A stretch of DNA of 64,000 nt from Heloderma charlesbogerti (Eukaryota; Chordata; Lepidosauria; Squamata; Helodermatidae), in contig JANEZZ010000805.1 in the NCBI GenBank assembly GCA_026122225.1, positions 496,001 to 560,000 of the forward strand. Reading direction: 5' to 3'. Position numbers and translations under genes: made by a program. Under the pieces are notes generated by a model that worked only from the letters and a program-made list of their open reading frames with translations, searched no databases and was not told the DNA's origin. This document shows, one piece after another, positions 2,043-63,489 of this stretch; the stretch's first letter is position 1, and each line of letters begins with the position of its first letter.

Positions 2043-2442
2043 CCCCCTAAAATACCATGCAAAGAGTTAAAATATAAAATACAATACAAATATTTAAAAG
2101 AATACAATACAGTACAATGCTATACAATATAAGCAGCACAGGAATAGATAAAACAGCCATACAAATCTAGAACTAGGTAGGGATGGCGGAGAATTTCTCC
2201 CCGAAACTTCGGGGGGCCGAGCGCCAACGCGTTCGGCCCCCCGAACAAGTTTCGGAGAGAAATCCTCCGCACCCCCCCGCACCCTGCACCCCCCCCGGGA
2301 CGGGACTTACCTTTTGCGAATGTCCCTCCTGGTGGCTGGTCCGGCCGGCGGTTCGGCGGGTGTTCGAGCGAGGCGGGAGTGGCAGCCGGTCTTTCGACCG
2401 GCTGCCGCCGCCGCCATTGTAATGAAAGAAAAAAAAAAAAAA

Positions 2443-2923
2443 CGCCCCCTGATAGGCTACGTGACGATTCACATAGCCTATCACGGCTAGATTTGCAAAG
2501 TCAGCCGTGATAGGCTACATGAATCGTCACGTAGCCTATCACGGGTGACTTTAAAAAAAAAAAAAAAAGAGTGTACGGATAATGGCGGCCCCCATAGGGA
2601 GCCGCCATTCCCGTTCCTTATTTGGTGGCTGTAGTCTACGTAAATGTTTACGTAGACTACGGAGAAAATAACGGCAACGCTATTTGCGTTGCCCTTATTT
2701 TTGTCGTAGTCTACGTAAACATTTACGTAGACTACAGCCACCAAATAAGGAACGCGAATGGCGGCTCCCTATGGGGGCCGCCATTATCCGTACACTCTTT
2801 TTTTTTTTTTTTTAAAGTCACCCGTGATAGGCTTTGTGACAATTCACGTAGCCTATCACGGCTGACTTTGCAGATCTAGCCGTGATAGGCTACGTGAATC
2901 GTCACGTAGCCTATCAGGGGGCG
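2443..2923. repeat. 481-bp nested palindrome (core of hAT copy 1)
   Basis: The centre lies at about 2683, in CAACGC-TATTT-GCGTTG. Moving outward on both sides come, in mirror order: a hairpin with CTACGTAAATGTTTACGTAG, an imperfect hairpin around GGCGGCCCCCATAGGGAGCC, an A/T homopolymer, and two hairpins with GATAGGCTACGTGA arms and CGAT or ATCG loops (for example 2451-2482 and 2508-2543). Small hairpins are thus stacked inside one large foldback. The arms differ by only a few substitutions. Confidence 0.92.
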
Positions 2924-2939
2924 TTGTTTTTTTTTTTTA

Positions 2940-3115
2940 CTTTCGCGTTCGCGGCCGGGTGAGGCGAGGCGCCTCCTCCCCGGCCTGAATTTTGGCCGGG
3001 CGAGGCGGGAAGCCTCCCCCCCGGCCTGAATTTCGGCCGGGCGAGGCGGGAAGCCTCCCCCCTGGCCTGAACTTCGTGGGGGGAGCAGCGAAGCGCTCCC
3101 CCCCACCGCGAATGG
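2940..3115. repeat. ~40-bp GC-rich tandem repeats of the B-end
   Basis: Three tandem units, each containing GGCCTGAA, a GGCCGGGCGAGGCG core and GCCTCCCCCC. The same array occurs at about 11640-11780 and, with fewer units, at 15240-15340. It is CpG-rich and sits just inside the outward splice-donor motif. Confidence 0.85.
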
Positions 3116-3160
3116 CCTTCGAGGACAGGTAAGTGACTTTCGTCCACCCCTAGAACTAGG

Positions 3161-5302: not shown

Positions 5303-6465
5303 TAGGGATGGTGGAGAATTCCGCCACAGACTCTAGTGAGGCCAGATTCTAAAGAACTCCACCTGGAGTCTGTGGCAGAACGGACTGCTCCCCCTGCCAC
5401 CCTGTGAAGTCCCCGTGGACTGGATCCTACCTGCCTCCAGCGGGTCCGGATCCAGCTGCTGCAGTCTCCTGCTCCAGTGTGTGGCTGCGAATGGCATCTT
5501 GTGTAGAGGATGCCATTTGAGTCCCTCCTTTAGCCGTGATAGGCTACGTAAATATTTACGTAGCCTATTGTCAGGGTGGACACTGAGCCCATAGAATCCC
5601 AGAGTAGTTCTGATTTGGAAGAAGAGCAGTCGCTCCTGGGAGAGGAGCACGCCCCTTTTTCCCAGGGCCCGCAGCTGACAGAGATTCCTCCCACCAACAT
5701 TCCTAGATTAGAAAGCAGTCCAGGGAGTGACCCAGCACCGATAGCAGACTGGTTGGATGCGCGGCGCAGACGCAGAGAGCGGCACCAAATGGAGAGCGCG
5801 GAAAGGAGGCGTAGTGCCCGGTTGGCACTCAAAGAATGGTTGCGCCCAGAGGACCCAAGGGAAAAGGGGAGGGATTCTCCCTAGTCCTTATATTCAGGGT
5901 TCTGCCAGTAATTGCCTTTCAAACGGGGACCAACTGTTCCAACTTAGGGCATAGGGATGCTGCTGCTCAGATCTAGTTGCTACCTGTAGAGTTGTAAGTT
6001 ATAAAAGAAGAATAAAGCTTTGAAAAGAATCCCTTTGTCTGCATCTGGACTTAGCTACTGGATTAGACTGAGAGAGCCCTCCAAGGAGCCCTTGACACCT
6101 ATCACGGCAAAGAGCAGGGACGCAAATGGCATCCGCTATGCCATTTGCATCCCTGCTTTAGCCGTGATAGGCTACGTAAGTATTTACGTAGCCTATCATG
6201 GCTACAGGGGGGGCACAAATGGCATCCCCTACGCAGGATGCCATTTGCGGCCGCAGCAGCCCGGCAGTGGACGGAGGTCTGGCTGCAGATGGGCCCAGCC
6301 AGCAGCTCCGCGGAGTCACCATGGAGCGGCGCTGGCCGGGGAGGATTCCAGGGGGGAGGAACGGATCGCCTTCCCGCTGGCAAGGATTCCGGGGGGAGGA
6401 ACAGATTACTGCCCCCCCCGCGGACTCCCCGTGGATGCAGGTGCGTGGGGTTTCGTACACCTCTA
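5303..6465 (+). mobile_element. Palindromic hAT-type element, split by a solo LTR (subfamily III)
   Basis: The A-end starts TAGGGATGGTGGAGAATTCC. The B-end finishes TTTCGTACACCTCTA. Flanking octamers CTAGCCAT and GTTGCCAT agree at 6 of 8 positions, so the duplication has decayed. Donor-like motifs remain at both ends (CAGGTAGGA on the minus strand, CAGGTGCGT near 6440 on the plus strand). The core has two hairpins with TACGTAAATATTTACGTA or TACGTAAGTATTTACGTA centres and paired GGCATCC/GGATGCC blocks. An LTR at 5569-6097 cut the first hairpin. Confidence 0.82.
5569..6097 (+). mobile_element. Solo LTR of a retrotransposon (LTR family 1, copy 1)
   Basis: 529 bp, starting TGTCAGGG and ending CCTTGACA, flanked by 5-bp duplications CCTAT (5564-5568 and 6098-6102). 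TG...CA ends, a 5-bp duplication and an AATAAAG signal near 6010 define an LTR. No internal gag/pol or second LTR is adjacent, so it is a solo LTR from LTR-LTR recombination. An open frame of 102 codons (5576-5884), rich in R/E, spans much of it; I treat it as part of the LTR, not a gene. It sits inside a hAT hairpin. A second copy frames 50735-56072. Confidence 0.88.
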
Positions 6466-8337: not shown

Positions 8338-10117
8338 TAGGGATGTCAGAGAATCCCGCCACGGATCTCAGTGAAGCAGAATGCCAGTGCAGTCAGCCTC
8401 CTGAAATCTGTGGCAGAACAAAGCCCCCCGCCCCACCACCCTGCAAAAGGCACATGACACGTAGCACTTACCTGGTGCCGTTCGCGCTGCTTTGAGAATG
8501 GAGACCATGTCTGCAACTGCCATTCGCTTCCCTATTTAGGCCGTGATAAAACGTAAATACTTACGTAGCCTATCACAGCTAACTCAGGGATGACATTTGC
8601 GTCCCCGTGGAGGCCATGATAGGCTACATAAGTATTTACATAGCCTATCATGGCAAAAAAAGGGAATGCAAATGGCAGCTGCCATAGCTGCTGCCATTTG
8701 CGTTCCTGTTTTTTTGCTGTGATAGGCTACGTAAATATTTACGTAGCCTATCATGGCAAAAAAAGGGAATGCAAATGGCGGCCGTCGTAGCCGCCGCCAT
8801 TTGCATTCCTGTTTTTTTTTTTTTTTTGCTGTGATAGACTACATAAATATTTACGTAGCCTATCACAGTAAAAAAACAGGGGCACAAATGGCCTAGCAGC
8901 CGCCATTTACACCCCTGTCTTTCACCGTGATAGGCTTAGGGATGTCAGAGAATTCTGCCACGGATCTCGGTGAGGCCTAATGCCAGTGCATTCGCCCCCC
9001 TGAACTCCATGGCGGAACAGCCTGCCACCCCCCCCCCGTGGATCCCCCGCGGGACAAGACTTACCTGGGGCGGATGTTCCGGATGGTGGCAGCTCCAGCA
9101 GTGGCTTCGGCGGCGGCTGGTCTTCTGACCAGCCGCCGCCGCCGCTGCCATTTGCAGTCTGTTTCCCCCCCTCATTCATGATAGGCTACGTAAAGACTTA
9201 TGTAGCCTATCATGTCTAGGTTAAAAAAACAAATAAAATGCGTACGCAAATGGTGGTGGCTACGGCCGCCGCCATTTGCGTTCCTTATTTTTGGCCGTCT
9301 TAGTCTATGTAAATATTTACGTAGACTAAGATGGCAAAAATAAGGGGGAACGCAAATAGCGTAGCGGACACCATTTGTGTTCCCCCTTATTTTTGCTGTC
9401 TTAGTCTACGTAAATATTTACATAGAATAAGACGGTGAAAATAAAGGGGAATGCAAATAGCATCCGCTATGCTATTTGCGTTCCCCTTTCTTGTCTTCGT
9501 CTTAGTCTACGTAAATATTTACGTAGTCTAAGACGGCCAAAAATAAGGAACACAAATGGCGGCAGCCGTAGCCACCGCCATTTGTGTATGCATTTGTTTT
9601 TTTTACCCGGACATGATAGGCTTCGTAAGTCTTTATGTAGCCTATCACAGCTGAATTCAGGGATGTAAACGGCGGTGGCTACAGCCGCCGCCATTTGCAT
9701 CCCTGCTAGCCAGCGGCCGGATGTCCGGCTGCTGGCGGAGCCAGCCAGCAGCTCTGCGGAATCCCCACGGAGCGGAGTCAGCCAGCCAGGATTCCAGGGG
9801 GAGGGACGGAGTGCCTCCCCCCCCAGCAAAACCCGGCAGAGCCAGGTAAGCGGGGTTTCGTACACCCCTAGATAGGCTACGTGAATATTTTTGTAGCCTA
9901 TCACGGCCAAAAACATGAACACATATGATGGTCGCTGTAGCCGTCGCCATTTGCGTCCGCAGGCTCCAGACGCCTGCGAATGCACCTGGCCAGCAGCTCC
10001 ATGGAGTTGCCAAGGAGTGGAGCTGGCCGGGTTAGGATTTTGGGGGGAGGTGCAGAGCACCTCCCCCCCACTGTGAATCATCCCTACGAAAAGGTAAGTG
10101 ACTTTCGTACATCCCTA
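8338..10117 (+). mobile_element. Palindromic hAT-type element carrying a nested copy (subfamily III)
   Basis: The A-end starts TAGGGATGTCAGAGAATCCC. The B-end closes with AAGGTAAGTGACTTTCG and CATCCCTA at 10117. A minus-strand donor (CACTTACCTGG) lies near 8467. Between the ends lie at least five hairpins with TACGTAAATATTTACGTA-type centres, separated by GGCGGCNNNNGCCGCC inverted blocks. A second element (8937-9870) sits in one hairpin. The flanking octamers (8330-8337 and 10118-10125) do not match, so the duplication has decayed or the ends come from different insertions. Confidence 0.78.
8937..9870 (+). mobile_element. Palindromic hAT-type element nested in a sister copy (subfamily III)
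   Basis: A 934-bp element starting TAGGGATGTCAGAGAATTC and ending TTCGTACACCCCTA, with a perfect 8-bp duplication GATAGGCT (8929-8936 and 9871-9878). The target is the hairpin arm of another copy, which resumes as ACGTGAATATTTTTGTAGCC. Donors face out at both ends (GACTTACCTGG near 9060 on the minus strand; CCAGGTAAGC near 9842). The core alternates TACGTAAATATTTACGTA hairpins with CGCAAATAGC blocks. Confidence 0.93.
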
Positions 10118-11574: not shown

Positions 11575-12545
11575 TAGGGGTGGACGAAAGTCGCTTACCT
11601 GTCATCGAAGGCCGTTCGCGGTGGGGGGGAGCGCTTCGCTGGTCCCCCCGCGAAGTTCAGGCCGGGGGGGGAGGCTTCCCGCCTCGCCCAGCTGAAATTC
11701 AGGCCGGGTGGGAGGCTTCCCGCCTCGCCCGGCCGAAATTCAGGCCGGGGGGGAGGCTTCCCGCCTCGCCCGGCCGCGAACGCGGAAGTAAAAAAAAAAA
11801 AAGCCCCCTGATAGGCTACGTGACGATTCACGTAGCCTATCACAGCTAGATCTGCAAAGTCAGCCATGATAGGCTACGTGAATCGTCACGTAGCCTATCA
11901 CGGGTGACTTAAAAAAAAAAAAAAAAAAGCGCGTACGCGAATGGCGGCCCCCATAGGGAGCCGCCATTTGCGTTCCTTATTTAGTGGCTGTCGTCTACGT
12001 AAATGTTTACGTAGACTACGGCGAAAATAAGGGCAACGCAAATAGCGTTGCCCTTATTTTCGCCGTAGTCTACGTAAACATTTACGTAGACCACAGCCAC
12101 CAAATAAGGAACGGGAATGGCGGCTCCCTATGGGGGCCGCCATTATCCGTACACACTTTTTTTTTTTTTTTTAAGTCACCCGGGATAGGCTACGTGACGA
12201 TTCACGTAGCCTATCACAGCTGACTTGGCAAATCTAGCCGTGATAGGCTACGTGAATCGTCACGTAGCCTATCAGGGGACGTGTTTTGTTTTTTTTCTTT
12301 GATTGCAATGGCGGGGGCGGCAGCCGGTCGAAAGACCGGCTGCCGCTCCCGCCCCGCTCGAACACCGGACGAACCGCCAGCCGGACCCGCCGCCGGGAGG
12401 GACATTCAGGGAAGGTAAGTCCCGTCCCGGGGGGGGCGGAGGGCGGGGGGGTGCGGAGGATTTCTCACCGAAACTTGTTCGGGGGGCCGAACGCATTGGC
12501 GCTCGGCCCCCCGAAGTTTCGGGGAGAAATTCTCCGCCATCCCTA
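11575..12545 (-). mobile_element. Palindromic hAT-type transposon, copy 2 of subfamily I
   Basis: 971 bp in inverted orientation to 2178-3152. The left B-end is TAGGGGTGGACGAAAGTC with CTTACCTG at about 11594-11601 (donor on the minus strand). The right A-end has AAGGTAAGT at about 12412-12420 and finishes CCATCCCTA. A perfect 8-bp duplication ATCCGAGG flanks it (11567-11574 and 12546-12553). The core palindrome is 11805-12279. Similarity to copies 1 and 3 is high across the whole length, suggesting a recent burst. Confidence 0.93.
11805..12279. repeat. 475-bp nested palindrome (core of hAT 11575-12545)
   Basis: The centre, near 12042, is CAACGC-AAATA-GCGTTG. Its five-base spacer is the reverse complement of the TATTT spacer in the copy at 2178-3152. 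Outward lie TACGTAAATGTTTACGTA hairpins, the GGCGGCCCCCATAGGGAGCC block, A/T homopolymers and GATAGGCTACGTGA hairpins, in mirror order. Confidence 0.92.
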
Positions 12546-13324: not shown

Positions 13325-13782
13325 TAGGGGTTTACAAAACCCCACTTACCTGGCTCCGCCGGGTTCCACAGGTGGGGGGAGGTGATCCATTCCTCCCCCT
13401 GGAATCCTGCCCAGCTGGCTCCGCTCCACAGCCAGGCCATAGAGTCGCTGGCCGGGCCAACCCTCAGCGGGGCCTCCAGCCACTGCCAGGCTGGTGCGGA
13501 CGCAAATGGTGTCCTGTGTAGGGGATGCCATTTGCGTCCCTGTGTTAGCCGTGACAGGCTACGTAAGTATTTACGCAACCTATCATGGCCATTCGAAAGA
13601 CACGAATGGTGGCTGCAGACGTGGCTGCCATTCGAGGAGCACCGGAACGGCTGACCAAGGTAGGCTCCGTTCCAGGACCATTTCGTGGGGGTGGGTGGGG
13701 GGCTTCATTCCGCCACGGATTTCGGGGGGCCAAATGTGCTGGCATTCAGCTTCACCAGTGGCAGAATTCTCCGCCATGCCTA
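13325..13782 (-). mobile_element. Short palindromic hAT-type element (subfamily III)
   Basis: The left B-end is TAGGGGTTTACAAAACCCC followed by ACTTACCTGG (minus-strand donor). The right A-end contains AAGGTAGG near 13657, then GGCAGAATTCTCCGCC and CATGCCTA. Flanks are GTGGACCA (13317-13324) and CTGGACCA (13785-13792), 7 of 8 with a 2-bp offset. Only one large hairpin (TACGTAAGTATTTACG) and one GATGCCATTTGCG block remain, so this is an internally reduced form. It lies at the edge of an L2-like LINE. Confidence 0.78.
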
Positions 13783-14506: not shown

Positions 14507-15402
14507 TAGGGATGGCAGAGAATTTCTCCCTGAAACTTCAGGGGGGCCGAGCGCCAACACGTTCGGCCCCCTGAACAAGTTTCGGTGAGAAATCCTCTGC
14601 ACCCCCCCGCCCCCCGCCCCCCCCGGGACGGGACTTACCTTCCCTGAATGTCCCTCCCGGCGGCGGGTCCGGCTGGCAGTTCGTCCGGTGTTCGACCGGC
14701 TGCCGCCCCCGGCATTGCAATCAAAAAAAAAAAAACGTCCCCTGATAGGCTACGTGACGATTCACGTAGCCTATCACGGCTAGATTTGCCAAGTCAGCTG
14801 TGATAGGCTACGTGAATCGTCACGTAGCCTATCCCGGGTGACTTAAAAAAAAAAAAAAAAAGTGTGTACGGATAATGGCGGCCCCCATAGGGAGCCGCCA
14901 TTCGCGTTTCTTATTTGGTGGCTGTAGTCTACGTAAATGTTTACGTAGACTACGGCGAAAATAAGGGCAACGCTATTTGCGTTGCCCTTATTTTCGCCGT
15001 AGTCTACGTAAACATTTACGTAGACTACAGCCACCAAATAAGGAACGCGAATGGCGGCTTCCTATGGGGGCCGCCATTCACGTACGCGCTTTTTTTTTTT
15101 TTTTTTTTAAAGTCACCCGTGATAGGCTACGTGACGATTCACGTAGCCTATCACAGCTGACTTTGCAGATCTAGCCGTGATAGGCTACGTGAATCGTCAC
15201 GTAGCCTATCAGGGGGCTTTTTTTTTTTTACTTCCGCGTTCGCGGCCGGGCGAGGCGGGAAGCCTCCTCCCCGGCCTGAATTTCGGCCGGGCGAGGTGGG
15301 AAGCCTCCCCCCCGGCCTGAACTTCGCAGGGGGACCAGCTAAGCGCTCCCCCCCACCGCGAACGGCCTTCGACGACAGGTAAGCGACTTTTGTCCACCCC
15401 TA
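14507..15402 (+). mobile_element. Palindromic hAT-type transposon, copy 3 of subfamily I
   Basis: 896 bp. The A-end starts TAGGGATGGCAGAGAATTTC. The B-end finishes TTTTGTCCACCCCTA. Flanking octamers CTCATCTG (14499-14506) and CTCACCTG (15403-15410) agree at 7 of 8. Donors face outward at both ends (GACTTACCTTCC near 14631; CAGGTAAGC near 15377). Two GC-rich B-end repeat units remain instead of three. It inserted into an L2-like LINE. Confidence 0.92.
14739..15213. repeat. 475-bp nested palindrome (core of hAT 14507-15402)
   Basis: Centred near 14976 on CAACGC-TATTT-GCGTTG. The arms mirror each other over about 235 bp apart from T/A run length and scattered substitutions. Hairpin order is the same as at 2443-2923. 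Confidence 0.92.
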
Positions 15403-16764: not shown

Positions 16765-18172
16765 TTGTTGTTGTTCAGTTGTTAAGTCATGTCCAACTCT
16801 TCGTGACCTCATGGACCATAGCACGCCAGGCCTTCCTGTCCTCCACTCTCTCCCAGAGCATGCTGAAGTTCATATTCATCTAAGGATGGACAAAAGTCCC
16901 TTACCTGGTGCCGCAGCTTGCTTTGCGGTGGGGGGGAGGTGCTTCGGTTCTCCCCCCGAAGTTCAGGCCGGGAGGGGAGGCGCCCCGCCCAGCCAAAATT
17001 CAGGCTGAGGGGGAGGCGCCCCATCCCTCGCCGCCGAACTGCAGGCCGGGGAGGAGCGCCCCATCTCCCCGGATGCGAAATAAAAAAGTAAATTTAAACT
17101 CACACACACACGCGCGTGATAGGCTACGTAACGATTTACGTAGCCTATCACGGCTAGATTTCCAAAGTCAGCCGTGATAGGCTACGTAAATCGTTACGTA
17201 GCCTATCACGGGTGACTTTGGGGAAAAAAAAGCGCATACGCAAATGGCGGCGCCCATGGGCGCAGCCATTGGCATTCCTTGTTTGGGCAGGGGTAGTCTA
17301 CATAAAGATTTACGTAGACTACGGTGAAAATAAGGGCAACGCAAATAGTGTTGCCCTTATTTTTGCCATAGTCTACGTAAATCTTTATGTAGACTACCTG
17401 GGCCCAAATAAGGAACGCAAATGGCGGCGCCCATGGACGCCGCCATTTGCATACGCGCTTTTTTTTTTTCACAGTCACCCGTGATAGGCTATGTAATGAT
17501 TTATGTAGCCTATCACAGCTGACTTTGGAAATCTAGCCGTGATAGGCTACGTAAATCGTTACATAGCCTATCACGTGTTTGTTTGTTTTTTTAAATTTAC
17601 TTTGTAATGGCGGCGGCGGCAGGCAGTCGGAAGACCGGCCGCTGCCCCCGCCCCCGCCGAAACGCCGTCGGGACCCGCCGCCGAGAGGGACATTCGAAGG
17701 AGGTAAGTCCCATCCTGGGGGGGGGCGGGGGGTGGAGAATTTCACCACCAATTTCGGGGGGCCGAATGCGTTGGCATTCGGCCTCCCGGAGATTCGTGGA
17801 GAAATTCTCCGCCATCCCTATATTCATCACATCGGTGATGCTATCTAGCCATCTTATCCTCTGCCGTCCCCGTCTCCTTTTGCCTTCAATCTTTCCCAGC
17901 ATCAGGGTCTTTTTCAGGGAGTTTTCTCTTCGCATTAGGTGGCCAAAATATTTGAGCTTCAGCTTCAGTATCTGTCCTTCCAATAAGCAGTCAGGGTTGA
18001 TTTCCTTTAGGATGGACTGATTTGACCTCCTTGCAGTCCAGGGGACTCGTAAGAGTCTTCTCCAGCACCACAGTTCGAAAGCATCAATTCTTCTGTGCTC
18101 AGCCTTCGTTATAGTCCAGCTCTCACAGCCATGCATTGCTACTGGGAAAACCATAGCTTTGATACTAATAAA
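16765..18172 (-). mobile_element. BovB (RTE) LINE 3' end, split by a palindromic hAT
   Basis: The minus strand encodes the BovB ORF C-terminus in 17829-18172 (motifs KAMVFPVAMHGCESWTI, LLRVPWTARRSNQSIL, KYFGHLMRREN). The 3' tail with the GTTGTTGTTCAG complement of the BovB tail is at 16765-16880. The two parts join exactly once the element at 16881-17820 and one copy of TATTCATC are removed. The copy is 5'-truncated and non-functional. Confidence 0.92.
16881..17820 (-). mobile_element. Palindromic hAT-type transposon (subfamily II) inside BovB
   Basis: 940 bp. The B-end starts TAAGGATGGACAAAAGTCCC with CTTACCTGG near 16899. The A-end carries GAGGTAAGT near 17699, then the GGGGGGCCGAATGCG subterminal hairpin and GCCATCCCTA. 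A perfect 8-bp duplication TATTCATC flanks it (16873-16880 and 17821-17828). The core palindrome, about 17115-17575, uses GATAGGCTACGTAACGATT hairpins instead of the GTGACGATT form of subfamily I. Being inside BovB dates it after that insertion. Confidence 0.93.
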
Positions 18173-23704: not shown

Positions 23705-24222
23705 TAGGGATGTCAGAGAATTCCACTGCGGATTGAAATGAAGCCAGATTCTTTGGAATCCAGCCTCAGGAATCCTCAGTGGATCAGGACCACTAACCTC
23801 CACTCCAGGAGGACTGGAGGCGGAACGGCACTCGGGTGCTTCTTGCCAGCCAGAGCCGTTCGCCTTCTCCCTGTCCCTGCCAATTGCCACGTCTTTTCTT
23901 TTCTTTCTTTTTTTTTAAAAGGCGATTGGCAGGATGTGCCTATAGACTTAGATGCAAATAGAGTCATGAATCTTGCGTATAAGTCTATGTGTCCATAGTC
24001 TTATATGCAAGATTCATTGCTCTATTTTGCGTCTAAGTCTATGGGCACATCCTGCCGATCGCCTTCTTTTTTTTTTTTAAGAAAACTTAAAAGACATGGC
24101 AATCAGCAGGGAGGGGGAGAATGTCTCTGGCTGGCCGGAGGGAAGGTAAGCAGCCCCCAAGCCGGTTCCCCTCCCCTGAATCCTCCTCACAGAACAGATG
24201 GTGGGGAATCTGTACACCCCTA
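23705..24222 (+). mobile_element. Palindromic hAT-type element with a third kind of core (subfamily IV)
   Basis: 518 bp with TAGGGATGTCAGAGAATTCC at the left, as in subfamily III, and CTGTACACCCCTA at the right. A perfect 8-bp duplication CTTACAGC flanks it (23697-23704 and 24223-24230). The core (about 23874-24104) is a palindrome built on GGCGATTGGCAGGATGTG and AGACTTAGATGCAAATAGAG, unrelated to the TACGTA hairpins. A donor AAGGTAAGC near 24144 faces right. The left donor is mutated (GAGGTTAGT on the minus strand). It shows that the same ends can carry different cores. Confidence 0.92.
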
Positions 24223-40548: not shown

Positions 40549-41499
40549 TAGGGATGTACGAAAGGTACTTACCTTTCAGTGGGTTTTGCTGATGCTGGGG
40601 GGAGGCGTTCCATCCCTCCCCCCGGAATCCTGGCTGGGGGGGGGAGGCGCTCCGTTCCTCCCCCCCCGGAATCCTGGCAGGCTGGCTCCGCTCCGCAGGG
40701 ATTCTGCGGAGCCGCCGGCCGGCTCCGCCAGCAGCCGGACATCTGGCCGTTGGCTAGCAGGGACGCAAATGGCAGCGGCCGTAGCCGCCGCCGTTTGCGT
40801 CCCCACAGTCAGCCGTGATAGGCTATGTAAATGTTTACATAGCCTATCACGGCTGAGTAAAAAAACAAACAACACGCGTACACAAATGGTGGCGCCCATG
40901 GGCACCGCCATTTGCGTTCCTTATTTTGGCACGTCTTAGTCTACGTAGACATTTACGTAGATTAAGACGGCGAAAATAAGGGGAACGCAAATAGCGTAGC
41001 GTCTACGCTATTTGCGTTCCCCTTATTTTCGCCGTCTTAGTCTACGTAAATGTTTACGTAGACTAAGACGTGCCAAAATAAGGATCGCAAATGGCGGCGC
41101 CCATGGGTGCCGCCATTTGCATACACACTTTTTTTTTTACTCAGCCATGATAGGCTACGTAAACATTTACGTAGCCTATCATGGTGTTTTTTTAAAATCT
41201 AGCTGTGATAGGCTATGTAAATCTTTACGTAACCTATCACATTTTTTTGTTTTGTTTTGTTTTTTATCTGGAAATGGTGGCGGCGGCAGCCGGTCGGAAG
41301 ACCGGCCGCCGCAGCCGCCACCGCCAAACCGCCGCCGGAACCGCTACCGCCGCTGCCGCCGCCAGGAAGATCCGCCTAAGATAAGTCCCGTCCCGGGGGG
41401 GTGGGGGACGGGGGGCCATTCCGCCACCCATTTCAGGGGGCCAAATGTGCTGGCATTAGGCCTCCCTGAGATCCGTGGCAGAACTTTCGTACATCCCTA
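40549..41499 (-). mobile_element. Palindromic hAT-type transposon (subfamily II) with two B-type termini
   Basis: 951 bp. The left B-end is TAGGGATGTACGAAAGGTAC with ACTTACCTTTC near 40567. The right A-end has a mutated donor (AAGATAAGTCC near 41378), then the AATG...CATT subterminal hairpin, but ends CAGAACTTTCGTACATCCCTA, the B-type tip. Octamers ACCAAATC (40541-40548) and ATCAAATC (41500-41507) agree at 7 of 8. The palindrome, about 40811-41190, centres on CGCAAATAGCGTAG / CTACGCTATTTGCG near 41001. Confidence 0.9.
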
Positions 41500-47156: not shown

Positions 47157-47540
47157 ATGAATCAAGGTAAGCTGGAGGTGGTCAAACATGAGATGGCAAG
47201 ATTGAACATCGACATCTTGGGAATCAGCGAACTAAAATGGACAGGCATGGGCGAATTTAATTCAGGTGACCATCATATCTACTATTGTGGGCAAGAATCC
47301 CTTAGAAGAAATGGAGTAGCACTCATAGTCAACAAAAGGGTGGGAAAAGCAGTACTGGGGTACAATGTCAAAAATGACAGAATGATCTCAGTACGAATCC
47401 AAGGCAAACCATTCAACATCACAGTAATTCAAGTCTATGCCCCAACCACTGAGGCCGAAGAAGCTGAGGTTGATCGGTTCTATGAAGACCTACAACACCT
47501 TCTAGAACTAACACCAAAAAAAATGTCCTCTTCATCATAG
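47157..47540 (+). pseudogene. BovB endonuclease, N-terminal part
   Basis: 127 codons from MNQGKLEVVKHEMARLN, with ISELKWTGMGEF and VIQVYAPTTEAEE. These are the first motifs of an apurinic-type (APE) endonuclease, whose job is to nick target DNA. The frame closes shortly after an A-run (aaaaaaa near 47515); the next piece is in another frame, so a frameshift lies there. The upstream GTWNVRS motif is present just before the ATG in the same frame, so the ATG used here is not the true start. Confidence 0.9.
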
Positions 47541-47559
47541 GGGCTTGGAATGCTAAAGT

Positions 47560-48245
47560 AGGAAGTCATGAAATCACCGGGATAACAGGCAGGCATGGCC
47601 TTGGTGTACAAAATGAAGCAGGACAAAAGCTAATAGAGTTTTGCCAAGAGAACATGCTGATCATAGCAAACACTCTTTTCCAACAGCACAAGAGGCGGCT
47701 CTACACATGGACGTCACCAGATGGTCAATATCAAAATCAGATTGATTATGTCCTTTGCAGCCAAATATGGAGAAGCTCCATACAGTCAGTAAAAACAAGA
47801 CCTGGAGCTGACTGTGGCTCAGATCATGAGCTGCTTCTTGCAAAATTTCGGCTTAAATTGAAGAACGTCGGGAAAACCACTAAACCGTTCAGGTATGACC
47901 TAAATCATATCCCTGATGAATATACAGTGGAGGTGAGGAATAGATTTCAGGGATTAAACCTGATAGACAGAGTGCCTGAGGAACTATGGACGGAGGTCCG
48001 TAACATTGTTCAGGAGGCAGCAACGAAATCCGTCCCAAAGAAAAAGAAATGCAAGAAAGCCAAGTGGCTGTCTGATGAGGCTTTACAAGTAGCTCACGAA
48101 AGAAGGGAAGCGAAAAGCAAGGGAGAAAGGGGAAGATATACCCAACTGAATGCAGAGTTCCAGAGAATAGCAAGGAGAGACAAGAAGGCCTTCTTAAATG
48201 AACAATGCAAAGAAATCGAGGAAAACAACAGAAGGGAAAGACTAG
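47560..48245 (+). pseudogene. BovB endonuclease C-terminal part and linker
   Basis: Contains IDYVLCSQIWRSSIQSVKT and GADCGSDHELLLAKF; the SDH triplet is the conserved catalytic end of APE endonucleases. The following lysine/arginine-rich linker (residues around KSVPKKKKCKKAKWL) leads to the RT. A frameshift near 48240 separates it from the reverse transcriptase. Confidence 0.9.
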
Positions 48246-49938
48246 AGATCTCTTCAAGAAAATCGGAGATCTCAAGGGAACGTTTTGTGCAAAGACGGGC
48301 ATGATAAAGGACAAAGAAGGCAGGGACCTAACAGAAGCAGATGAGATTAAGAAGAGGTGGCAAGAATACACAGAAGAACTATACAGGAAAGATCTGAATG
48401 TCCCTGATAGCCATGATAGTGCAGTCACTGAACTTGAGCCGGACATCCTAGAGAGTGAAGTCAAGTGGGCCTTAGGAAGCATTAGTAACAACAAAGCTAG
48501 CGGAGATGACAGTATTCCAGCCGAGCTATTTAAAATCCTAAAAGATGATGCTGTTAAAGTGCTGCATTCAATATGCCAACAAATCTGGAACACTCAACAG
48601 TGGCCACAAGACTGGAAAAGGTCAGTTTACATTCCAATTCCAAAGAAGGGCAACGCCAAAGAGTGTTCAAACTACCGCACAATTGCGCTCATTTCACATG
48701 CCAGCAAGGTGATGCTCAAAATCCTACAAGCTAGGCTTCAGCAGTATGCGAACCGAGAACTACCGGAAGTACAAGCAGGGTTTAGAAGAGGCAGAGGAAC
48801 TAGAGATCAAATCGCCAACATTCGCTGCATCATGGAGAAAGCAAGAGAATTCCAGAAAAACGTCTATTTCTGCTTCATTGACTACGCTAAAGCCTTTGAT
48901 TGTGTGGATCACAACAAACTGTGGCAAATTCTGAAAGTGATGGGAGTACCAGACCACCTTACCTGTCTCCTGAGAAACCTGTACGAGGGTCAAGAAGCAA
49001 CAGTAAGAACCAGACATGGAACAACCGATTGGTTCAAAATTGGGAAAGGAGTACGACAAGGCTGCATATTGTCACCCTGCTTATTTAACTGATATGCAGA
49101 GTACATCATGAGAAATGCCGGGTTGGATGAATCAGAGGTCAGAATTAAGATTGCCGGGAGAATTATCAACAACCTCCGATATGCAGACGATACCACCCTA
49201 ATGGCAGAAAGCGAAGAGGATCTAAAGAGCCTCTTGTTGAGGGTGAAAGTGGAGAGTGCAAAAGCTGGTTTGAAACTCAACATTAAAAAAAATAAGATCA
49301 TGGCATCTGGCCCTATCACTTCCTGGCATATAGAAGGGGAAGAAATGGAAGCAGTGACAGATTTTACTTTCTTGGGCTCCAAGATCACCGCAGACGGTGA
49401 CTGTAGCCATGAAATTAAAAGACGCTTGCTCCTTGGGAGGAAAGCTATGGCAAACCTAGACAGCATAGTAAGAAGCAGAGACATCACCTTGCCGACAAAG
49501 GTCCGTCTAATCAAAGCTATGGTTTTCCCAGTAGTAATGTATGGCTGTGAGAGCTGGACTATAAGGAAGGCTGAGCGCCGAAGAATTGATGCTTTCGAAC
49601 TGTGGTGCTGGAGAAGACTCTTACGAGTTCCCTGGACTGCAAGGAGGTCAAATCAGTCCATCCTAAAGGAAATCAACCCTGACTGCTCATTGGAAGGACA
49701 GATAATGAAGCTGAAGCTCCAATATTTTGGCCACCTAATGCGAAGAGAAAACTCCCTGGAAAAGACCCTGATGCTGGGAAAGACTGAAGGCAAAAGGAGA
49801 AGGGGACGGCAGAGGATGAGATGGCTAGATAGCATCACCGATGCAATGAATATGAACTTGAGCACGCTCCGGGAGAGAGCGCAGGACAGGAAGGCCTGGC
49901 GTGCTATGGTCCATGGGGTCACGAAGAGTCGGACATGA
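48205..49938 (+). pseudogene. BovB reverse transcriptase and C-terminal region, one in-frame stop
   Basis: Reverse transcriptase motifs in order: SVYIPIPKKGNAKECSNYRT, AGFRRGRGTRDQI, CFIDYAKAFDCVDHNKL (first catalytic Asp), GVRQGCILSPCLFN, then TGA at 49090-49092 in frame, then NNLRYADDTTLMAES (catalytic YADD). After this come the RTE C-terminal motifs MYGCESWTIRKAERRR, RRLLRVPWTARRSNQ and YFGHLMRREN, ending MVHGVTKSRT. All catalytic residues are visible, but the stop splits palm from YADD. Confidence 0.93.
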
Positions 49939-51853: not shown

Positions 51854-52395
51854 TATGGATCTCAGAGAATTCCACCATGGATCTCGGTGAGGCCGAATGC
51901 CAGTTAAAACTATTTTAGCCTATGTAAATATTTATGTAGGCTATTACGGCGGAAAAAAAGGGAACACAAATGGCGGCCCCTACGCCATTTGCGTTCCCTT
52001 TTTTTCTTTTTTTGCCGTAATAGCCTACGTAAATATTTACATAGGCTAAAATGGGGTGGGGGAGGGAATGCAAATGGCAGCCTCCATAGCCGCCAACATT
52101 TGCGTCAGCTGTTTTTTGTTTTTTGTTTGCCATGATAGGCTATGTAAATATTTAAGTAGCCTATCATGGCAAAATACAGGGACGCAAATGGCGGTGGCTA
52201 CAGCAGCCACCATTTGTGTCCCTGCAGGCTGCCCAGCGGCCGGATGTCCGGCTGCGAGCAGCCCCGGCCGGTGGCTCTGTGAAATCTCTGTGGAGCGGAG
52301 CCATCCGGAGACAATTTTGGGGGGAGGTACGGAGCGCCTCCCCCCCACTGCGAATGTCACCTTTCGAAAAGGTAAGTGTCTTTCGTACATCCCTA
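51854..52395 (+). mobile_element. Chimeric palindromic hAT-type element across a BovB deletion
   Basis: The A-end starts TATGGATCTCAGAGAATTCC. The B-end closes with AAGGTAAGTGTCTTTCG and TACATCCCTA. The left flank is ATTGGAAT, the right is CTCATTTC; these are BovB positions about 1.13 kb apart in the intact copy. The A-end is cut short after GAATGCCAGT, then hairpins TACGTAAATATTTAC follow. This fits two insertions that recombined and removed the DNA between them. Confidence 0.8.
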
Positions 52396-52413: not shown

Positions 52414-53183
52414 TAGGGATGGCGGAGAATTCTGCCATGGATTTCAGTGAGGCTGAATTAGGGATGTCAAACAATTCCGCCACGGATCTCGGTGAGGCCG
52501 AATGCCAGTGGATTTGGCCCCCCGAAATCTGTGGCAGAATGGCCTGCCACTCCCCTGCCCCGCCCCGTGGATCCCCCCTGGGATGAGGCTTACCTGGGGC
52601 GGATCTTCCAGTCGGTGGTGGCTCCGGCAGCGGCTGTGGCTGCGGCAGCTGGTCTTCTGGGCAGCTGCGGCAGCTGGTCTTCCGACCGGCTGCCGCCGCT
52701 GCCATTTGTCTTGTAAAAAACAAAAAACTACGTGATAGGCTACGTAAAGATTGTAGGGATGTAAGAAAGTCACTTACCTTTTGCAGATTATGTTGATGGT
52801 TGGGGGGGAGGCGTTCCGTCCCTCGCCCCGGAATTCTCACTGGGGGGGAAGATGCTCCGTTCTTCCCCCCTGGAATTCTCCGCAGCCAGCTGTGCTCGGC
52901 GGCAGCTCTGTGGAGCAGCTGGCCAGGCCCAGTCAGGCCAGAGCTGTCCGCAGCCAGATTTCCAGCCGTGGAGGGCTCTGGGGAAAAACAAAACAAAACG
53001 TGTATGCAAATGGCGGCAGCTATGGCCGCCATTTGCGTTCCTCATTTTTGCCATCTTAATCTACGTAAATATTTACGTAGACTATGACAGCGAAAATAAA
53101 GGGGAACGCAAATACCGTAGCGGGCGCTATTTGCGTCCCTTTTTGATTCACCGTTTTAGCCTACATAAATACGCTACGTAAAG
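52414..53183. mobile_element. Stack of three nested palindromic hAT ends, right sides lost
   Basis: Three starts are nested: A-end at 52414 (after ATGCCAGC of BovB), A-end at 52459 (after GGCTGAAT of the first), and B-end at 52754 (TAGGGATGTAAGAAAGTCAC, after AAAGATTG in the second's hairpin). Donors AGGCTTACCTGG (near 52587) and CACTTACCTTTTG (near 52771) are kept. The third element's core (CGCAAATACC...GGCGCTATTTGCG) runs into BovB at about 53184 with no right end. All three lost their right ends and duplications in one or more deletions. Confidence 0.78.
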
Positions 53184-53632
53184 GTTATGCTCAAAATCCT
53201 ACAAACTAAGGTTCAGCAGTATGTGAACCAAGAACTACTGGAAGTACAAGCTGGGTTTAGAAGAGGCAGAGGAACTAGAGATCAAATCGCCAACATTTGC
53301 TGGATCATGGAGAAAGCAAGAGAATTCCAGAAAAACGTATATTTCTGCTTCTTTGAGTATGCTAAAGCCTTTGGTTGTGTGGATCACAACAAACTCTGGC
53401 AAATTCTTAAAGAGATGGGAGTGCCAGACCACCTTACCTGTCACCTGAGAAACCTGTACGAGGGTCAAGAAGCAACAGTAAGAACCAGACATGGAACAAC
53501 TGATTGGTTCAAAATTGGGAAAGGAGTATGACAAGGCTGTATATTGTCACCCTGCTTATTTAACTTATATGCAGACCAGCAGAGTACATCATGAGAAACG
53601 CGGGGTTGCATGAATCACAGGTCGGAATTAAG
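53184..53632 (+). pseudogene. BovB reverse transcriptase fragment
   Basis: Encodes LEVQAGFRRGRGTRDQI, CFFEYAKAFGCVDH and GTTDWFKIGKG, then TGA (near 53529) in place of the arginine of GVRQG. The catalytic Asp of FIDYAKAFD is changed to E and G at two places (FFEYAKAFG), so even without the stop it would be inactive. Confidence 0.88.
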
Positions 53633-54272
53633 GAGGGATGTCAGAGAATTCCGCCACGGATCTCGGTGAGGCAGAATGCCAGTGCATTCAGCCCCCCGAA
53701 ATCCATGGCAGAATGGCCTTCCCCCCCGCCCCGTCCCGCGGATTCCCGCCGGGACGAGACTTACCTGGGGCAGATGTTCCGGATGGCGGCGGCTCCAGCG
53801 GCGGCTGCGGCTGGTCTTCCGACTGGCTGCTGCCGCCGCCATTTGCAGTCTCGTCTTTTCTTTTCTTTTTTTTACCATAGACATGACTAAGATGGCCAAA
53901 AATAGGAAACACAAATGGCGGCCGCCATAGCCGCCGCCATTTGCGTACGCATATTTTTTTAAAAAAACCAGACGTCATAGGCTACGTAAGTCTTTACGTA
54001 GCCTATTCCAGTTGAAAACAGGGACACAAACGGCGGCAGCTATGGCAGCCGCCATTTGCGTCCCTGCTACCCAGTGGCCAGATGTCCGGCTGCTGGCGGA
54101 GCCGGCCGGCGGCTCCGCGGAATGCCCGCAGAGCAGAGCTGGCCAGGCAGGACTCTGGGGGGAGGGATGGAGCACCTCCTCCCCATCGAGGATTCCGGGG
54201 GGAGGGATGGAGCGCCTCCCCCCCACTGCAAAGCAGATCTGTGAAATGGTAAGTAACTTTCGTATGTCCCTA
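53633..54272 (+). mobile_element. Palindromic hAT-type element, first of a tandem pair (subfamily III)
   Basis: 640 bp, GAGGGATGTCAGAGAATTCC to TTTCGTATGTCCCTA, with perfect GAATTAAG on both sides (53625-53632 and 54273-54280). Donors face outward (GACTTACCTGG near 53759; ATGGTAAGTAAC near 54247). The core is reduced to one complete TACGTAAGTCTTTACGTA hairpin and the GGCGGC blocks. The target is BovB 'gaattaag' just before the YADD motif. Confidence 0.92.
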
Positions 54273-54280
54273 GAATTAAG

Positions 54281-55156
54281 TAGGGATGGAGGAGAATTCC
54301 ACCCCGGATTCCAGTGAGGCTAGATTCTTTAGAATCCACCCCCCCGGAATCTGTGGCGGAACAGCCTCCTGCCCCCCTGCCCCCCACGATGAATCCCCCC
54401 GTGATGGCACTTACCTGGGGCGGATGCGGTGGATTCGGCGGCAGCAACAGCTCCGGCGGCTGGTCTCCTGGCCGGCCGCAGCAGGGCTGCTGCCTCCGCC
54501 ATTGTCGTCCTTGGACTGTGATATCCTATGTAAGAATTTACATAGCCTATCATGGCTAACCTTAAAAAAACAAACAAACGCAGTGTACGCAAATGGTGGC
54601 GGCTACGGCAGTCGCCATTTGCATTCCCTATTTTTCGCTGATTTATCTTACGTAAATATTTACGTAAGATGAAACGGTGAAAAAAAAAAGGGAACACAAA
54701 TAGCGTAGTGGACGCTATTTGAGTTCCTTTATTTTTTGCCGTTCTTACCTATGTAAATATTTACGTAGGCTAGAACAGCGAAAAATAAGGGAACGCAAAT
54801 AGCGTCCACTACGCTATTTGCGTTCCCCTTTTTTTTCCACCGTTTTAGCTTATGTAAATATTTACGTAAGATAAATCAGCGAAAAATAGGGAATGCAAAT
54901 GGCGACTGCCATAGCCGCCACCATTTGCGTACACTGCGTTTGTTTGTTTTTTTAAGGTTAGCCATGATAGGCTATGTAAATTCATCTTCGACTGGAAATC
55001 CATCTGCAGATGGTCCTGGCCGGCTGCTCCACGGCCTGGCCGCAGAGCGGAGCTGGCCATTGAGGATTCCGGGGGGAGGACCGGATTGCCTCCCCCCCTG
55101 TCGAGGATTCCAGGGGGAGGGACGGAGCAAAAGTAAGTGAATTTTGTACATCCCTA
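54281..55156 (+). mobile_element. Palindromic hAT-type element, second of a tandem pair (subfamily III)
   Basis: 876 bp, TAGGGATGGAGGAGAATTCC to TTTTGTACATCCCTA, with GAATTAAG at 54273-54280 (shared with its neighbour) and 55157-55164. Donors: GCACTTACCTGG near 54409 and AAAGTAAGTG near 55131. The core palindrome (about 54526-54988) centres near 54757 on TATGTAAATATTTACGTA and has TTACGTAAATATTTACGTAA hairpins on both sides. Same orientation as its neighbour. Confidence 0.93.
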
Positions 55157-55967
55157 GAATTAAGATTGCTGGGCGAATTATCAACAACCTCAGATATGCA
55201 GACGATCCCACCCTAATGGCAGGAAGCGAAGAGGATCTAAAGAGCCTCTTGTTGAGGGTGAAAGAGGAGAGTGCAAAAGCTGGTTTGAAACTCAACATTA
55301 ACAAAACTAAGATCATGGCATCTGGCCCCATCACTTCCTGGCATATAGAAGGAGAAGAAATGGAAGCAGTGACAGATTTTATTTTCTTGGGCTCCAAGAT
55401 CACCATAGATGGTGACTGTAGCCATGAAATTAAAAGATGCTTGCTCCTTGGGAGGAAAGCTATGGCAAACCTAGACAGCATAGTAAGAAGCAGAGACATC
55501 ACCTTGCCAACAAAGGTACGCATAATCAAAGCTATGGTTTTCCCATTAGCAACATATGGCTGTGAGAGCTGGACTATAAGGAAGGCTGAGCGCCAAATAA
55601 TCGATGCTTTCAAACTGTGGTGCTGGAGAAGACTCTTACGAGTCCCCTGGACTTCAAGGAGGTCAAATCAGTCAATCCTAAAGGAAATCAACCCTGACTG
55701 CTCTTTGGAAGGACAGATACTGAAGCTGAAGCTCAAATATTTTGGCCACCAAATGTGAAGAGAAAAGTCACTGGAAAAGTCACTGATGCTGGGAAAGATT
55801 GAAGGCAAAAGGAGAAGGGGATGCAGAGGATGAGATGGCTAGATAGCATCACTGATGCAACTTGAGCACCCTCCGGGAGAGAGCGGAGAACAGGAAGGCC
55901 TGGCGTGCTCTGGTCCATGGGGTCACGAAGAGTCGGACATGACTGAACGACTGAACAACAACAAAGC
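55157..55967 (+). pseudogene. BovB reverse transcriptase C-terminal part and 3' tail
   Basis: RIKIAGRIINNLRYADDPTL opens it, followed by MASGPITSWHIEGEEMEAV and the RTE C-terminal motifs TYGCESWTIRKAERQ and LLRVPWTSRRSNQ. It stops at KYFGHQM-TGA (near 55756) and carries a 3-bp-class rearrangement afterwards (a duplicated 'ggaaaagtcact'). The tail ends CGACTGAACAACAACAA. Confidence 0.9.
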
Positions 55968-63070: not shown

Positions 63071-63489
63071 TAGGGATGTGCAAATCAGCAAAACATGAGC
63101 TTGCTGAAGTTCTCTGAATTCCATCTTGAAGCTTCTTCTAATATGAGTGTGTATCAGATTGTGAACTTTTCTTTTCTTTTCCTATGAAAATACATGTATA
63201 TTTTCATGCATATTTTCCAAATGTATGCATCAATTGTGCTTATCTTTGAAATGTATGCATTCTTCTCCCATTGACTGAAGCTCATTTGTGCACATTTTTC
63301 AAAAGTATGCATTTTTCCGTGCACATATTTCAGTTATATGCATGCTGTCGAACACATTGTTTTTGGAATCACTTTGCAAATTTAGAAATGTATGGACTTC
63401 AACCACAGATTGCATCTGAGTCTGTGTTCAGTCTGGAAGGCAAATCCTGAATCAAAAACAAACTCAAACGAATTTCTCATACATCCCTA
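63071..63489. mobile_element. AT-rich hAT-type MITE
   Basis: 419 bp, TAGGGATGTGCAAATCAGC to TTTCTCATACATCCCTA. Octamers GGAATGTA (63063-63070) and GGAATGCA (63490-63497) agree at 7 of 8. The interior has 'aaatgtatgcat' and 'gtgcacatttttcaaaagtatgcat'-type units. Related to 45676-46123. No GGTAAGT near the ends. Confidence 0.82.

Follow-up and report, generated by a model that had tools for sequence, protein, structure and literature searches.

Outward-facing 5' splice-site motifs at both ends of hAT-type MITEs in the Heloderma charlesbogerti genome

The window analysed here, a 64-kb stretch of the 2.30-Gb genome assembly of Heloderma charlesbogerti, is rich in MITEs whose ends carry sequences resembling splice donors. 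What is the role of such donors at the two borders of a non-coding DNA transposon? The elements bear the marks of hAT transposons, namely short terminal inverted repeats of the TAGGGATG type and 8-bp target-site duplications (17 perfect pairs, compared to 0.25 false pairs expected), and MITE insertions found within copies of the autonomous hAT element are missing from sister copies. They are approximately 0.4–1.2 kb long and possess two ends, A and B, which are unlike each other. End A starts with TAGGGATGNCNGAGAATT and contains ACTTACCT, in the inward reading, mostly 112–129 nt from the terminus; end B starts with TAGGGRTGNACGAAA and contains ACTTACCT 16–19 nt from the terminus. When read outward, ACTTACCT is AGGTAAGT at both ends. 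The core between the ends is CpG-rich and palindromic. This hAT-like family of short transposons is very abundant in this vertebrate genome: a B-end 26-mer with at most two mismatches has 83,696 genomic copies, and its reversed control has none.

The donor motifs are located where the first-pass annotation had placed them, and the rule that they point out of the element is real. The annotation had further listed the same pair for eight elements, which is exact for two of them. Element 2178–3152 (975 bp, plus strand, A end left and B end right, target duplication GAACTAGG) carries AGGTAAGT at both ends, as AAG/GTAAGT at the A end (2305–2313, minus strand, offset 127) and as CAG/GTAAGT at the B end (3126–3134, plus strand, offset 18); between both ends lies a long imperfect palindrome (2429–2937), whose arms are 95% complementary. 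In element 8338–10117, the exact donors are found at 8466–8474 (minus) near the A terminus 8338 and at 10091–10099 (plus) near the B terminus 10117; its flanks, TGTATTAG and ATATTCTT, do not match as a target duplication. The other six elements have one substituted end. The B end contains CAGGTAAGC in 8937–9870 (9843–9851, plus; A-end donor 9059–9067, minus), in 11575–12545 (11593–11601, minus; A-end donor 12412–12420, plus) and in 14507–15402 (15376–15384, plus; A-end donor 14633–14641, minus). It contains CAGGTAAGG in 16881–17820 (16899–16907, minus; A-end donor GAGGTAAGT, 17700–17708, plus), ATGGTAAGT in 53633–54272 (54246–54254, plus; A-end donor 53759–53767, minus) and the weakened donor AAAGTAAGT in 54281–55156 (55130–55138, plus; A-end donor 54409–54417, minus). 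Element 8937–9870 is a separate insertion nested inside 8338–10117, with the target duplication GATAGGCT.

Single or mutated pairs had been proposed for further elements. Element 5303–6465 has the variants CAGGTAGGA at its A end (5425–5433, minus) and CAGGTGCGT at its B end (6438–6446, plus), and element 13325–13782 has an outward B-end donor (13344–13352, minus) and the A-end variant AAGGTAGGC (13657–13665, plus). In 40549–41499, the B-end donor is present (40567–40575, minus) and the right, A-end donor is lost (ACTTATCT). The pair in 23705–24222 exists, but not at the usual offsets of 112–129 and 16–19: its A end has the weak donor GAGGTTAGT at offset 87 (23792–23800, minus) and its B end has AAGGTAAGC at offset 71 (24143–24151, plus). 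We assign this element to an intermediate class. Outward donors also accompany the B terminus 52395 (52369–52377, plus), the A terminus 52459 (variant CAGGTAAGC, 52588–52596, minus) and the B terminus 52754 (52772–52780, minus). An AT-rich, MITE-like element at 63071–63489, with TAGGGATG termini and a target duplication with one mismatch, has no outward donor.

Several other features of the window were recorded. The MITE cores are composed of short near-perfect palindromes (GTGATAGGCTACGTAAATATTTACGTAGCCTATCAC; GCAAATGGCGGC..GCCGCCATTTGC), for example at 2449–2557. One 51-nt core unit has 49 copies, and TACGTA occurs 102 times in 16 elements, compared to 2.9 times in shuffles (both strands counted). 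The target duplication GATAGGCT of the nested element (8929–9878) is itself contained in the palindromic unit that recurs in these MITEs. The adjacent elements 53633–54272 and 54281–55156 have the 8-mer GAATTAAG before, between and after them (53625–55164). An Rfam search at gathering thresholds gave no match. Long open frames of an RTE-type LINE, which we take to be BovB-like, occur at 47486–49938 and 55141–55758.

The abundance and the orientation of the donors exceed chance. In the window, AGGTAAGT occurs 17 times, compared to a mean of 1.98 and a maximum of 6 in 100 shuffles; 14 of these copies are located within ends of hAT MITEs and all 14 point outward, and the other three (30382, 35429, 61196) lie outside the detected ends. 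Donor strength was expressed in bits, by means of weights for human 5' splice sites. Of the ends collected from the window and from further loci, 28 of 37 at A and 32 of 35 at B carry a donor that faces outward and scores 10 bits or more. This set omits 8 A and 5 B ends picked by the query, the autonomous end L031, and two B ends of less than 200 nt, L015:173 with a broken and L026:172 with an intact donor. Inward donors of this strength are found in none of the A or B ends (shuffle means 0.4 and 0.6, respectively). At 8 bits, the same ends yield 33 A and 34 B outward donors versus 1 A and 3 B inward donors. Masking the donor in the sequences used for model building (12 per end type, 11 of each masked at the usual site) gave outward donors in 38 of 48 A ends and 38 of 42 B ends and no inward donor, in counts that include a duplicate of a window element (L001) and copies picked by a donor-containing query. 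The elements can also be defined without any model: among 17 whose limits were set solely by their terminal repeats and by perfect target duplications of 8 bp (two of them, in L007 and L008, query-picked), 15 carry at each end an outward donor that reaches 8 bits, whereas inward donors of this strength occur at both ends of none and at one end of three. The two elements that fail are 23705–24222 and the AT-rich L014:7468–7919.

For a comparison with genuine 5' splice sites, each end type was divided into 24 clusters, which served to weight the 46 A ends and 40 of the 41 B ends; the B end at window position 24222, which is without a site, was left out. At both ends the conserved block matches the consensus MAG/GTRAGT including its pattern of tolerance; genome-wide, however, position +3 is no looser than +2. 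In A ends, the information content is 1.1–2.0 bits at positions −2 to +6 and below 0.8 bits outside, except for 0.96 at +11. In B ends the terminal repeat keeps it high towards the terminus (1.1–1.7 bits at +10 to +13), and conservation of the adjoining B-end motif is therefore not independent of transposition. Position −3, which does not belong to the word used for placing the site, is A or C in a fraction of 0.83 of the A ends and 1.00 of the B ends. Position +5 is always G, and the two loosest of the nine positions are −3 and +6 at both ends. When 300 permuted words were placed in the same way, the mean number of mismatches of the best control was 2.22 at A ends and 1.00 at B ends, compared to 0.81 and 0.59 for the motif. 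Conservation correlates with the information content of human 5' splice sites at B ends (rho 0.77, p 0.014), and not significantly at A ends (rho 0.56, p 0.12). Furthermore, in 38 of 40 A ends at least two G-runs lie within the first 50 nt of the putative intron. The reading of the motif as a splice donor, already favoured by the first-pass annotation, thus gains support from the shape of the conserved block, from its exclusively outward orientation and from an apparent gain at new positions, which is described below.

As hAT transposases use subterminal motifs, ACTTACCT might instead be a transposase-binding site, read inward from each end, whose likeness to a donor is coincidental. At both ends the motif is oriented alike with respect to the terminus, and at the B end it continues the conserved terminal repeat, as such a site might. 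We nevertheless consider this explanation rather unlikely. The distance from the terminus varies widely (16–19, 71, 86–87 and 112–129 nt), and the alternation of A and C at −3 together with the loose position +6 matches a 5' splice site. Moreover, a subterminal transposase repeat should be present in all mobile relatives. AT-rich, CpG-poor MITEs share the terminal-repeat type of the main class (B end: TAGGGATGTACAGATTTTGTTAAATCTG), but outward donors of 8 bits or more are absent from all eight of their B ends, one of which, in L008, is a short fragment.

The same holds for a possible autonomous partner. Transposase loci were located via the hAT dimerisation domain, and two open reading frames of 879 and 908 amino acids match PF05699, the first containing a BED domain in addition. 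Upstream of the 908-residue frame lies a terminus (L031:14) that is identical to the A-end majority sequence over the first 23 nt and scores 22.6 bits across 83 positions. At this locus the 3' end was not reached within 8.9 kb and a target duplication was not found. AGGTRRGY is absent from both strands of the first 6.6 kb following this one autonomous A terminus. The lack of the donor in the AT-rich MITEs and at the autonomous terminus weakens the interpretation of ACTTACCT as a transposase site. The idea that the donor is a remnant of the autonomous element was discarded, as the A terminus of the latter (one copy) is without a donor.

MITEs of the family have inserted into autonomous hAT copies (L032, L034, L039, L035+L041); in L032, the MITE is located just upstream of the transposase frame and its A end faces this frame. 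A Myb/SANT-like frame (L045:228–647, minus strand; PF13837, E 1.8e-6) lies antisense to the transposase frame of L031, about 2.8 kb downstream, and sequence homologous to this region follows the transposase in two other copies. The best named relatives of the transposase stem from a lizard and from geckos and share only 36–42% identity. Three lizard and gecko proteins (P0001–P0003) combine PF02023 with BED and hAT domains, and two of them additionally contain PF01352; we take these domains to be SCAN and KRAB, respectively. The three proteins are likely fusions of host and transposase sequences.

The intermediate class, from which a small sample of three A ends and two B ends was compared, has its donors at other positions. 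The A-end donor is found at 86–87 nt, with 11.6 bits in L014 and L016 and a weak 7.6 bits in 23705–24222. At the B end, the donor lies at 71 nt in 23705–24222 (10.9 bits), and a weak one (7.1 bits) lies at 142 nt in L014. The site of the main-class donor is occupied by non-donor sequence in the intermediate class and vice versa, according to an alignment of the A ends, which a C-rich stretch makes uncertain, and to a comparison of the B ends by eye. As the donor positions of the two classes do not correspond, outward donors seem to have been gained anew at both ends. Two more divergent B ends contain ACTCACC, i.e. GGTGAGT. The AT-rich MITEs are presumably older than the donor-bearing ones, in an undated order that was judged from GC content, CpG loss and divergence. 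Apparently older relatives that have no donor, or have it elsewhere, hint at selection for the donor.

Alternatively, the motif may be functionless and owe its frequency to descent from a few successful source copies that were amplified. The decay of single copies fits this explanation, and many copies are young. The first-pass annotation had named donor bases that mutate as fast as their neighbours as evidence against a function, and for single copies this is in part what was observed. In a genome-wide survey with a fixed B anchor, which yields counts and not rates, copies substituted at +6 number 11,768, compared to 705 at +2 and 623 at +3. The variability of +6 fits the tolerance predicted for a 5' splice site. 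Changes at +2, which destroy the donor, are however about as frequent as changes at +3, which are compatible with it, and give no sign of constraint. Single insertions therefore appear to decay neutrally, GTGAGT is not specially propagated, and selection, if any, acted on source copies or lineages. Among the matches listed, +3 has changed to G (outward reading) in 68 of 100, which is no clear enrichment of GTGAGT, and transitions account for 15 of 24 changes at +2. Within one young family, the motif is less divergent than the non-CpG flanks, with 0.009 versus 0.028 at A ends (14 copies) and 0.021 versus 0.029 at B ends (6 copies), numbers too small to lean on. Descent alone is nonetheless quite unlikely to account for the motif: it is kept across 24 clusters per end while its neighbours in A ends diverge, and descent leaves unexplained why the donors point outward at both ends and were seemingly gained at new positions.

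The setting of the donors is indeed rich in GC and CpG, as had been annotated. The CpG observed/expected ratio in 16 elements is 0.75 and 0.79 for the two ends and 1.34 for the middle, compared to 0.42 for the flanks and 0.31 for random loci. In the same elements, ATGGCGGC occurs 49 times versus 1.2 times in shuffles. Among 40 A ends, ATGGCRGC faces outward in 26 and inward in 6, and 23 of the 26 outward copies precede the donor by 82–112 nt; these counts are unweighted, and a single young family contributes many of the ends. Such a bias is absent from B ends (10 outward versus 13 inward, of 41). The A-end arrangement resembles a start of the YY1/TISU type. In element 2178–3152, for example, a putative first exon of 107 nt with an open frame extends from the ATGGCGGC start to the donor (2311–2417, minus strand). 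Open frames from ATG to donor exist in many ends and differ in phase. A coding first exon was rejected: the reading phase at the donor varies (0, 1, 2) between subfamilies, which means that no coding exon is conserved.

The resemblance of the A-end exon to a real first exon, with its ATGGCGGC start, open frame and donor, would also be expected if the ends were pieces of host promoters and first exons, captured together with their donors as in a Pack-MITE. This origin is improbable, as the donors of the intermediate and the main class do not align and the frame is not kept between subfamilies. That the donors allow MITE transcripts to escape a HUSH-like silencing of intronless RNA is highly improbable and not supported: in the HUSH study (PMC8770142), introns shield transgenes, but this protection persists without a 5' splice site and is not conferred by a spliced stuffer sequence, so that a lone donor is not predicted to work. 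Splicing of the element out of host exons was rejected in view of the orientation of the donors.

The best reading is that each MITE end constitutes an outward-directed cassette of promoter, first exon and U1-recruiting site. The presence, strength and orientation of the donors, their splice-site-like block, and its absence or shifted position in related MITE classes can be read directly from the elements; the donor as such is well supported, and promoter activity and splicing are predicted from it. We rate it at slightly below an even chance that a hAT MITE lineage has evolved the motif at both ends as a real, outward-facing 5' splice site, and that this site operates according to the following promoter/U1 model; the narrower proposal that selection has acted on the motif as a 5' splice site deserves somewhat greater confidence. 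RNA polymerase II would start in the CpG-rich interior that bears ATGGCGGC, most clearly at A ends, and would transcribe outward. U1 snRNP would bind the donor, and the transcript would leave the element about 100–130 nt (A end) or 20–26 nt (B end) later. According to a review (PMC10228655), initiation can be raised by U1 together with a 5' splice site close to the promoter. U1 at the donor would keep the short promoter active and shield the nascent RNA from early polyadenylation. As a by-product, the first exon of the element could be spliced onto neighbouring acceptors; a script that searched sampled loci with three exon-end patterns revealed no clear retrocopies of chimeric RNAs, in which an exon end is joined to non-GT sequence. 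Selection in source copies would have favoured open chromatin at the two transposon ends in cells in which transposase is active, and would involve no gain for host genes. It is a more tentative suggestion, and on balance a doubtful one, that a cut-and-paste lineage repeatedly evolved this two-sided cassette of outward promoter, first exon and 5' splice site as a selfish trait, and that its more than 80,000 copies have seeded first exons in both directions.

If this is true, a non-coding DNA transposon profits from U1 snRNP that is recruited at its own borders, a strategy that to our knowledge is known only in part, from L1. Each copy would then be a natural gene trap in both directions, and the family would supply new promoters, chimeric transcripts and fusions of host and transposon sequences in large number. 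A testable question is whether transposon ends stay accessible to transposase by means of a promoter-proximal 5' splice site alone.

The elements resemble hAT MITEs in their 8-bp target duplications, their short terminal repeats and an A terminus that appears to be shared with a hAT-bearing locus; we know of no hAT MITE with outward 5' splice sites at both ends. Among the listed titles and beginnings of abstracts in a literature search of weak scope, none described a DNA transposon that carries outward donors at both of its ends. The maize element Ds, also a hAT element, contains splice signals in its ends, which help to splice the element out or to exonize it. Splice signals in the ends are thus shared with Ds; the orientation found here, however, does not allow the element to be spliced out. 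Introner elements are DNA transposons that likewise co-opt splice sites, as outlined in PMC10228655, but they become introns themselves, whereas the present donors point away from the element. Splice signals of transposons also affect host transcripts in the Tigger and L1 gene traps that are restrained by SAFB; that work (PMC10901741) deals with intronic A-rich sense copies and not with outward donors at element ends. The nearest known system appears to be the antisense promoter of L1 with its antisense donors. In human and mouse, donors within L1 serve to join first exons derived from the transposon to neighbouring exons in the outward direction (PMC2176070). L1, however, is a retrotransposon and its arrangement is one-sided, whereas the element described here is a cut-and-paste MITE with donors at both ends.
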